A stretch of 33,651 bases of DNA from a virus. Below, piece by piece: positions 1,846 to 4,204 of the stretch. Positions within the stretch are counted from its first letter, which is position 1; each line of letters begins with the position of its first letter. The notes beneath the pieces were generated by a model, which worked only from the letters and a program-made list of their open reading frames with translations, had not been told where the DNA came from and ran no database searches. Location: the IMG/VR virus record IMGVR_UViG_3300021594_000191, positions 1 to 33,651 of that record; one strand, given 5' to 3'. The translations under genes and the position numbers were made by a program.

Positions 1846-2115
1846 ATGATACGATTATCGCAACTAAACGAAGCATCGGAAGTACAACTAAAAGACTTAA
1901 AACCAACTCAACAAAAGCAAGTAATGGCTTTTGAAAAATTAATTGGTGGTAAAGTAGATTCTATATTTGATGGAATACATGGGTTCATTGTAGATATAAA
2001 AGTAAGTGGTGGACATGGTAATTATAGATTTGAAGCTGATGATTTGAAAAAATTATTATCTTTAAAAGTTCGTTGGATAGAAGCGGATGGTGATTACATT
2101 TCAATAGCATTTTAA
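1846..2115 (+). CDS. Small phage protein with N-terminal L-x-E tag, unknown function
   Basis: 89 residues. The N-terminus MIRLSQLNEA matches the tag shared by the next three genes (M-I-x-L...L-x-E) and would be cut after Glu9 if a T4 gp21-type prohead protease acts on it. The rest is a small alpha/beta protein with a glycine-rich turn (VSGGHGNYRF) and a short C-terminus ending in Phe. I recognise no enzyme motif. The gene starts 1 nt after the previous stop and is followed 9 nt later by the next tagged gene, so it belongs to the same operon. Confidence 0.7.
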   Translation: MIRLSQLNEASEVQLKDLKPTQQKQVMAFEKLIGGKVDSIFDGIHGFIVDIKVSGGHGNYRFEADDLKKLLSLKVRWIEADGDYISIAF

Positions 2116-2124
2116 TATAAAAAT

Positions 2125-2472
2125 ATGATAAGTTTAAAGAAAATATTAAAGGAAGCAAAAGCAGATTATCAAGTATATCACAAAACATATTCAGCAGCAA
2201 TAGCTACGGCTAAAGCATATGCGGAGAAAAAAGGATATGAAGTTGATGATGAAGATTCTTTTAGAAAAATTGGAATGGGCCCTAGAAAACCTTCTGCTGG
2301 TAAAACAAATAGATTTTCAATTGAATTAACAAAAAACGGAAAACCGCAAAAAAAATTATTACATATACAAGTTTATAATATGGGAACTTTCAAAAGAAAC
2401 CCAGATGGTTCTCAAACTAGAAGTATGTGGGGTGGACAAAACGAATACGAATTAAACGCTTATATCAACTAA
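2125..2472 (+). CDS. Small conserved phage protein with N-terminal L-x-E tag
   Basis: 115 residues. It begins MISLKKILKEA, the second copy of the shared N-terminal tag, with a putative cleavage site after L-K-E (residue 10). The body begins with a helical part (~13-40, rich in Ala/Lys/Tyr), then an acidic turn (VDDEDSF), then a beta-rich region containing GPRKPSAGKTNRF and a strand near HIQVYNMG. From memory, similar proteins occur as hypotheticals in other T4-like phages; the function is unknown. The stop overlaps the next start by 1 nt. Confidence 0.75.
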   Translation: MISLKKILKEAKADYQVYHKTYSAAIATAKAYAEKKGYEVDDEDSFRKIGMGPRKPSAGKTNRFSIELTKNGKPQKKLLHIQVYNMGTFKRNPDGSQTRSMWGGQNEYELNAYIN

Positions 2473-2987
2473 TGATATTACTAAAAGATATATTAGGAGA
2501 AGACCTTAGAAAATGGTTTGGTAAAGGTAAAGAAGGTTCAACTACTGGTGGTGGTTGGGATAGATACAATACCAAAGGTGAGAAGGTTGGTAAGTGTGGT
2601 GATAGTAAAGAGGGTTCGGCATATGCAGCGTGTTTATCAAAAGAAAAAGCAGCTAAATTAGGAAAAGATGGTAGAGCTGCATTTGTAAAAAGAAAAAGAG
2701 CAGCACAATCTGATGCGGGTGATAGTAAAAAAGGTGGAGAACAAAAGAAAGGTCAGAAACCTACATTTGTAAAGACTGGTGCTGGTAAAAATGAGAATAT
2801 GAAATTGACAGTAGAACAAAAGATGGAATTATTTTTAGAAAGAAATTGTCCAACTGACCCTGCTAAGTGGTCTGCATCAAAAGCAGCGGCAAAGAAAAAG
2901 TTTGATGTATATCCATCAGCGTATGCAAATGGATGGGCTGCAAAAAACTATAAATCAAAAGGTGGCGGTTGGAAAACCTGTAAATAG
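2472..2987 (+). CDS. Lys/Gly-rich basic protein with DUF5872-like C-terminal region and L-x-E tag
   Basis: 171 residues. I chose the ATG at 2472, not the in-frame one at 2427, because it overlaps the previous stop by 1 nt and gives the tag MILLKDILGED shared with its neighbours. Two regions are visible. Residues ~12-110 contain WFGKGKEG, a Cys pair (KCGDSKEG and AACLSKEKA) and basic stretches, a pattern common in small proteins of large marine phages. Residues ~120-171 contain CPTDPAKW, SAYANGWAAKNYK and a final GGGWK, which resembles DUF5872-type sequences (family name from memory). The very basic composition would suit DNA association inside the capsid, but that is inference. Confidence 0.75.
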   Translation: MILLKDILGEDLRKWFGKGKEGSTTGGGWDRYNTKGEKVGKCGDSKEGSAYAACLSKEKAAKLGKDGRAAFVKRKRAAQSDAGDSKKGGEQKKGQKPTFVKTGAGKNENMKLTVEQKMELFLERNCPTDPAKWSASKAAAKKKFDVYPSAYANGWAAKNYKSKGGGWKTCK

Positions 2988-2988
2988 A

Positions 2989-3537
2989 ATGATTAAATTA
3001 AAATCACTTTTAAAAGAAGATATATTTTATACAATTGCTATTAATGTAGCATTAACTGCTGCTATATGGGCAATCAAACAAGCTATACTTTCATTCAGAA
3101 GTACCTCTGTAAAAGAAAAAGAAATTGGTAAAGCTTATATAAAATGGTTAGATAGATTAGATAAAAACGATAAATTTAATAAATTTGTATATTACACTTT
3201 AAAAAATGATAATAAACTTAAAAGCTTAAAATCTAAAACAAAAGATGGTAAATTTGATTTTGAATCATTTGTTTATCAAAAATCTTTAGTTAAAAAATGG
3301 TTGACAAGTAAACCTGCGGAAGATGAATTAGAAAAAGTATTCAGAGATTTGTATCCATCTAAAGATAAAAATTCAAAAGATATAGAAGGGGATAATGGTA
3401 TAGAACTTACTTATAATCAATGGAAATTAAATACACTCAATAAAGCAGTAGAAGAATTTACCGATGTATTAAATAGTGGACATGTAAAGGGTTTTATTAA
3501 TCAATACGCAGAAAAACAAGGTTTAGTAAAGATATGA
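2989..3537 (+). CDS. Tagged protein with N-terminal hydrophobic helix, unknown function
   Basis: 182 residues from the ATG at 2989. An in-frame ATG at 2902 exists but lies inside the previous gene, and only the 2989 start gives the shared tag MIKLKSLLKED. Just after the L-K-E site (residues 8-10) comes a hydrophobic stretch (~12-32, with several Ala/Ile and a Trp), probably one membrane helix. It is followed by a lysine-rich, mostly helical soluble part. If the tag were removed, the protein would start with a membrane-inserting segment, which would suit a protein ejected with the DNA; this is inference. No family is recognised. The next gene overlaps it by 4 nt. Confidence 0.7.
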   Translation: MIKLKSLLKEDIFYTIAINVALTAAIWAIKQAILSFRSTSVKEKEIGKAYIKWLDRLDKNDKFNKFVYYTLKNDNKLKSLKSKTKDGKFDFESFVYQKSLVKKWLTSKPAEDELEKVFRDLYPSKDKNSKDIEGDNGIELTYNQWKLNTLNKAVEEFTDVLNSGHVKGFINQYAEKQGLVKI

Positions 3538-4022
3538 TAAACGAATGTATCATTGTATCCAAAGAAGTTGGTGATAAATTTATCCTAGCAAAAAATAGAG
3601 ATAGAGCTTACAAGCCAAAATTAGAAGTGGTTCATACTATTATAGATGGTATAGAAGTTGCGTATTTACATGATATAATTACCGATTGGAGTGAAGGATT
3701 GAATGCAAATGGTATTGGCGTTGTAAATGCAGCACTATTAGTTGGACACGATGAAGCTGAAGCTAAGCTTGTAAAAAAAGCTGGTAAACCTGGACCTGAT
3801 GGGGATAAAATGAGAAACATTATTAAGCAACCTACTCTAATGGATGCGGTAAGAGCTACACTATCATATAAGGGCAAGAGTGGATTATCTTTAAAAGGTC
3901 ATACATTTGTATCATCTCCAAAACATATGGTTAGTATTGAAACTACATCAAAGCATAAGCCTGATGTTAAACTTCAAAACTCCGAATCGCCTGTTGTTCG
4001 TACAAATCAAAATCTCAATTGA
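3534..4022 (+). CDS. Ntn-hydrolase-like protein, N-terminal part (probably truncated)
   Basis: 162 residues. The N-terminus has CIIV with Cys5, then ILAKNRDRAYKP at ~17-28. This resembles Ntn-hydrolase-fold amidases and acyltransferases (C45/C59 and NRDE/TANGO2-like), where a Cys near the N-terminus is the nucleophile and an NRD motif follows. The later WSEGLNANGIGVVNAAL also fits that fold. A second half would be expected after SPVVRTN, but the frame stops four residues later at a TGA. The next small ORF, in another frame, looks like the missing C-terminal strands. The protein is therefore probably a frameshifted or internally deleted remnant. The substrate is unknown. It overlaps the previous gene by 4 nt. 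Confidence 0.65.
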   Translation: MINECIIVSKEVGDKFILAKNRDRAYKPKLEVVHTIIDGIEVAYLHDIITDWSEGLNANGIGVVNAALLVGHDEAEAKLVKKAGKPGPDGDKMRNIIKQPTLMDAVRATLSYKGKSGLSLKGHTFVSSPKHMVSIETTSKHKPDVKLQNSESPVVRTNQNLN

Positions 4023-4204
4023 ATATGAGAAGACAATCAGACAGTATGTTTACATCTTCTCAAACTATAATGAACTTAACGGATAGAATATTAGAAATCG
4101 AATATTTTGCTGATAAAGTAGAATCTTTTGAAGGTATTAGAAATGAATTACCAAAAGGATATACCCCTAAAATCAAAATAGAAGTTAGAAAGGTACAATC
4201 CTAA
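4019..4204 (+). pseudogene. Probable C-terminal fragment of the Ntn-hydrolase-like gene
   Basis: The frame begins at a TTG (4019) overlapping the previous stop, with an ATG at 4025, and gives at most 61 residues. After a short basic start it reads SMFTSSQTIMNLTDRILEIE, two probable beta strands, then ESFEGIRNELPKGYTPKIKI. Terminal strands of this kind are expected at the end of an Ntn-type hydrolase rather than at the start of a new protein. No good ribosome-binding context or ATG sits at the overlap. I read it as the displaced tail of the preceding gene, with part of the middle lost. It could instead be a genuine small gene. Confidence 0.45.

Follow-up and report, generated by a model that had tools for sequence, protein, structure and literature searches.

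A common N-terminal tag on four genes of an uncultured T4-like phage suggests a cassette of protease-processed cargo proteins of the head

Four consecutive genes of an uncultured T4-like phage very probably encode internal head (cargo) proteins of the T4 type, which would be targeted to the head by a common N-terminal tag, cut by a protease and expelled into the host. The genes lie in an IMG/VR record of 33,651 bases that encodes T4-type baseplate and replication genes (the window, meaning the whole stretch analysed). Megablast of the first 20 kb of the window against phages gave no match, and the phage collection holds no close relative. All four genes are on the + strand in head-to-tail order, start with ATG and adjoin tail/baseplate genes. 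An earlier sequence-only reading had described four ORFs with tag-like N-termini and unrelated bodies; all four are present, and the bodies are indeed mutually unrelated (best BLASTP cross-hit, E = 1.4).

Gene 1846 (1846–2115; 89 aa) begins MIRLSQLNE/A, where the slash marks the predicted cut; its 9-residue tag (1846–1872) precedes an 80-aa body starting at A10. Gene 2125 (2125–2472; 115 aa) begins MISLKKILKE/A, with a 10-residue tag (2125–2154), a predicted cut before A11 and a compact alpha/beta body. Gene 2472 (2472–2987; 171 aa) begins MILLKDILGE/D (10-residue tag, 2472–2501) and encodes a very basic protein with a DLRKWFG module followed by a DUF5872-like module. Gene 2989 (2989–3537; 182 aa) begins MIKLKSLLKE/D (10-residue tag, 2989–3018), with a predicted cut before D11 and a helical body. 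The ATG starts are supported by an in-frame stop three codons upstream in genes 1846 and 2125 and by stops close upstream of the same ATG in homologues of 2472 and 2989; the longer GTG/TTG starts proposed by the ORF tool at 2427 and 2902 are thus unlikely to be real. Downstream, a 162-aa ORF (3534–4022) is interrupted: homologues in relatives (e.g., L173, L009) reach about 270 aa, and the remainder of the protein lies in another frame at about 4019–4204. This interruption may be a sequencing error or a real lesion.

The tags resemble the capsid-targeting sequence of T4 internal proteins. Mutational mapping of T4 IPIII assigns targeting to residues 4 and 7 and processing to residues 8 and 10, and gp21 cleaves after L/I-x-E (PMC9026906). 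The three 10-residue tags carry L4, I/L7, L8 and E10, matching every mapped IPIII residue, and the tag of 1846 is one residue shorter than the IPIII tag MKTYQEFIAE/A. The T4 sequences themselves read MKTYQEFIAEA in ipII and ipIII and MAKINELLRES in gp24.

On this basis, the first 9–10 residues would act as a capsid-targeting sequence, whose amphipathic stretch (hydrophobic at 4, 7 and 8) would dock the precursor into the prohead core. A gp21-type serine protease would then cut after the Glu of [LI]-x-E and remove the tag, while the body would stay in the head with the DNA. Upon infection, the bodies would leave the head for the host along with the genome and would be the first to act there. 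Cargo genes would be swapped with the tag retained, and in relatives several modules would share a single chain, each junction bearing a cut site. The sequences lend targeting and cleavage good support; we infer actual packaging, cleavage, injection and anti-host action, as well as what each body does. In T4, IPI acts as an inhibitor of a restriction enzyme, and strain ECOR17 is one on which IPIII is required (PMC9391042); by analogy with these roles, early anti-host action is the most likely role of the cargo.

Homologues of all four bodies retain the tag. Relatives of the 1846 protein are encoded by 46 loci, and five diverse members of this family share L4, L7 and E9 without exception; L4, L8 and E10 are invariant in seven homologues of 2989. 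In the AlphaFold model of 2125 (mean pLDDT 80), the tag is disordered and lies outside the compact body; a PAS-like arrangement considered for this body was not accepted (Z under 5). The mature 2472 product has a computed pI of 9.9 and a charge of about +21, in agreement with the earlier description of one candidate as very basic. Its second module begins at about residue 124, is preceded by a second putative site (LFLE/R) and is named DUF5872-like because its match to DUF5872 (PF19197) is partial and sub-threshold (17.4 bits versus a Pfam gathering score of 27.5). A membrane helix had been proposed right after the cut in 2989. A hydrophobic segment is present at residues 16–34, but it is not a strong one: the best 19-mer has a mean Kyte–Doolittle hydropathy of 1.7, and the AlphaFold model (mean pLDDT 68) is a single long low-confidence helix spanning tag and body.

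Searches of the cargo bodies against Pfam and NCBIfam returned no family above cut-off, those against PADLOC no family and those against PHROGs none with a function; fold searches with the 2125 and 2989 models in BFVD and the PDB yielded no confident match. One BFVD fold match (E = 0.03) is no more than a lead; its target is a domain within a 1134-aa protein that bears the name anti-CBASS Acb1. With T4 57B, known as Acb1, tblastn found no relative in the fetched loci.

The window fragment of 33.7 kb contains neither a protease nor a capsid gene; both are known from relatives. The sequence-only reading had called for a search for a gp21-like protease, and this family (PF03420) was found in 12 of 20 relative records, including G001 and G018, in which protease and cassette occur in the same record. 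The motifs GELxHP and G[IV]SSRG of the catalytic region are conserved in these proteases and common to T4 gp21. In the relatives' gp23 (major capsid protein), a putative site [IVL]xE/A aligns with T4 FLTE/A, which suggests that head proteins share the cut motif. In G009 and G010, gp23 itself has a tag-like N-terminus (MKINNILNES in G009). G009 also carries tags on two genes adjoining gp21 (MKKLKDLLKES, MNLKKLITES), G010 has a tagged gene directly after gp21 (MKNLKELLNES) and G001 has a tagged 145-aa gene between terminase and portal; head-gene identities in these three records were assigned from gene order and similarity to annotated genes of Flavobacterium phage immuto. Immuto and Microcystis phage Mel-JY01 are among the nearest isolates by capsid protein. 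Immuto (MW353175) encodes a tagged homologue at 112261–112575 (MRLLELLRE/A) with 70% identity to the L017 protein. This gene, immuto26A_189 (L166:12261–12575), was deposited as 'tRNA(Ile2) C34 agmatinyltransferase', a name that looks wrong for a small tagged cargo homologue without a Pfam match. As a separate observation, large (780–1000 aa) cytidylyltransferase-like proteins with tag-like N-termini are encoded in the head gene region (L106:5026, L111:11457, L136:6310, L144:7914–10910), some of them with two successive L-x-E sites (e.g., FLIESILGEAA).

The tagged genes adjoining gp21 in G009 and G010 possibly encode scaffold or core proteins, and in T4 cleavage turns the core proteins gp22, gp67 and gp68 into fragments that mostly leave the head (PMC9026906). 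The tag could accordingly be a signal for core or scaffold docking and clearance, whose bearers would be fragmented and disappear from the head instead of being delivered. This alternative is improbable. Each window protein contains exactly one strict [LI]xE, in the tag, so that the bodies would remain largely intact after maturation, and tagged probable enzymes (HAD, DHH, kinase, lysozyme) make poor sense as scaffold. Bodies of 49 tagged representatives contain 48 [LI]xE versus 59.8 expected from shuffles, whereas untagged ORFs of relatives contain 334 versus 264 expected. The depletion (P = 0.017 for the window bodies; P = 0.064 for the tagged set versus shuffles) points to a modest avoidance of further sites, in the direction that a protease predicts.

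Under the preferred reading as packaged cargo, several of the tagged families in relatives are probable enzymes. Their domains include phage lysozymes, a cell-wall hydrolase, HAD, DHH and zeta-toxin-like kinase, several of these matches being below the Pfam cut-off, and HExxH metallopeptidase-like and ADP-ribosyltransferase-like proteins are recognizable by motif only. Phage lysozyme or cell-wall hydrolase domains carry the same tag at L031:2813, L036:3331 and L034:11965, suggesting that peptidoglycan hydrolases are packed in the head. Peptidoglycan hydrolases inside the head are known from other phages; relative to T4 internal proteins, a tagged lysozyme and cell-wall hydrolase are atypical, which counts against the cargo explanation. 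The tagged protein at L058:7664–8407 has motifs YRG, SWTT and ESE that recall ADP-ribosyltransferases, and PDB and family searches lent this assignment no support. T4 Alt is an injected ADP-ribosyltransferase (PMC9026906), so that a cargo of this kind would be in character here.

The interpretation of the N-termini as tags stood, and the sequence-only reading missed that the same cut motif also links modules inside fusion proteins. The motif [LIVMF]xE, with a background of 2% per position, immediately precedes the 2125 body in all 49 distinct homologues, both as N-terminal tag and at internal junctions. It likewise precedes, N-terminally and internally, the DLRKWFG module of 2472 in 54 of 55 homologues and the DUF5872-like module in 59 of 59, the internal forms occurring in 12 and 23 dissimilar upstream contexts, respectively. 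One homologue of 2989 has KLSEILKE/G deep within the chain, and a 77-aa cargo protein with the tag MITLKSLLKEE recurs in a 181-aa protein, where it forms the second half and follows TLKSFLKEE. These patterns are best read as movement of cargo modules between single tagged genes and putatively cleavable fusions. At the DLRKWFG and DUF5872-like junctions, the Glu could belong partly to the domain itself. Among 12 hits of the DUF5872-like domain in bacterial genomes, several look phage-derived and keep the xxE junction, and the copies in bacterial contigs L305 and L309 are without the junction motif; these two copies are a weak argument against the motif being part of the domain, suggestive with 12 hits, which are too few for proof. 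Multi-module proteins embedding homologues of the 2472 and 2125 modules are also encoded by Synechococcus phage S-BM3 (L163, 2818–3831), where the gene adjoins the small terminase gene, and by Methylophilales phage Melnitz-3 (L162, 4942–6330).

A broader proposal is a modular system of injection with a single protease-cut motif in two roles, as the head tag of single cargo and as the linker of multi-cargo precursors; we regard this as a tentative idea, close to evenly balanced and leaning slightly to doubt. If it holds, any module behind the motif would be loaded and released, and cleavage of the 2472 protein would yield two basic peptides. There would then be a large undescribed pool of injected early effectors, with probable kinase, phosphatase, nucleotidase, metallopeptidase-like, ADP-ribosyltransferase-like and cell-wall enzymes.

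The amphipathic character of the tag, the location of the cassette beside tail/baseplate genes and the existence of tagged lysozymes would also fit a signal to another destination (tail, membrane), and a translation or expression leader shared by recombination might produce similar N-termini. Both are highly improbable: tags occur on gp23 and beside gp21, the four tags are alike as protein while their codons differ, and a leader would not explain why internal junctions, too, conserve the Glu and its spacing.

The distribution of the tag was assessed in a sample of about 200 loci fetched via the four proteins, with internal ATGs in the same frames as controls. The T4-register tag, M-x2-h-x2-h-h-x-E (hydrophobic residues at positions 4, 7 and 8 and Glu at 10), stands behind 128 of the 2115 distinct start ATGs and behind 9 of the 4875 internal ones (odds ratio 35, p = 4e-56), the p value being indicative because the loci partly overlap and relatedness is not fully removed by the de-duplication of sequences. 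The looser 9-residue form carried by 1846 is much less specific alone (35 of 2115 start versus 40 of 4875 internal ATGs). Similar patterns number only 3–7 per relative genome or large contig and are grouped in cassettes and near head genes. Genome-wide in relatives, the tag recurs on a small protein set that includes capsid and core-region genes, in line with the cargo explanation. Chance, or a compositional artefact in an AT-rich genome with many genes starting M-I-K-L, would draw on the commonness of Ile, Lys and Leu and on the looseness of the 9-residue version, but the excess at start codons and the few, clustered matches leave this reading next to no probability. The consensus in the related loci is MIKLKDILNE; of 116 distinct N-termini, 111 have L at position 4 and 113 have I or L at position 7, counts for which the hydrophobic class formed part of the selection. 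The tagged proteins form 44 body clusters, a few of which match the motif only loosely, and the tag is spread over about 40 unrelated families.

Phage proteins injected with the DNA meet host defences first and are hard to recognize because their sequences are unrelated. A short N-terminal rule would make candidate injected proteins readable from environmental phage genomes, and for the present group, whose cultured members are all distant, it already indicates about 40 families. A further suggestion is a second T4-type packaging signal that could load foreign proteins into phage heads, in phages with other hosts. Searches of open-licence papers found no account of a tag of this kind for this phage group.

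The closest known counterparts are T4 IPI, IPII and IPIII (Mullaney and Black, 1996, reviewed in PMC9026906), which share with the window proteins an N-terminal tag of about 10 residues, the L/I-x-E cut motif, hydrophobic residues at 4, 7 and 8 with Glu at 10, and unrelated bodies in small, mostly basic proteins. No sequence relation of the bodies to those of T4 was found, and the consensus differs (MIKLKDILNE here, MKTYQEFIAE in T4). Moreover, cargo families are far more numerous here, and fusion proteins can contain cargo modules as internal units. The N-terminus of T4 gp24 (MAKINELLRES) has nearly the same pattern as the window tags; gp24 and gp23, whose propeptides are cut by gp21, are shell proteins, unlike the cargo here. 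In phage P1, the N-terminal 30 residues of DarB send a reporter to the capsid, and the Dar proteins are similar in that N-terminal capsid-targeting serves proteins acting early against host restriction (PMC9024508), whereas the signal is longer and the phage unrelated. The inner-body and ejection proteins of phiKZ and SPN3US resemble the present case in that many head proteins are matured by a gp21-type protease; the cut motif of phiKZ differs (S/A-x-E), and the passages of PMC9026906 drawn on here report no short shared targeting tag for these phages. The tag is therefore an already characterized type of element, the T4 capsid-targeting sequence, and the mechanism is not new; what appears new is the cargo, the phage group and the occurrence of modules in fused form.
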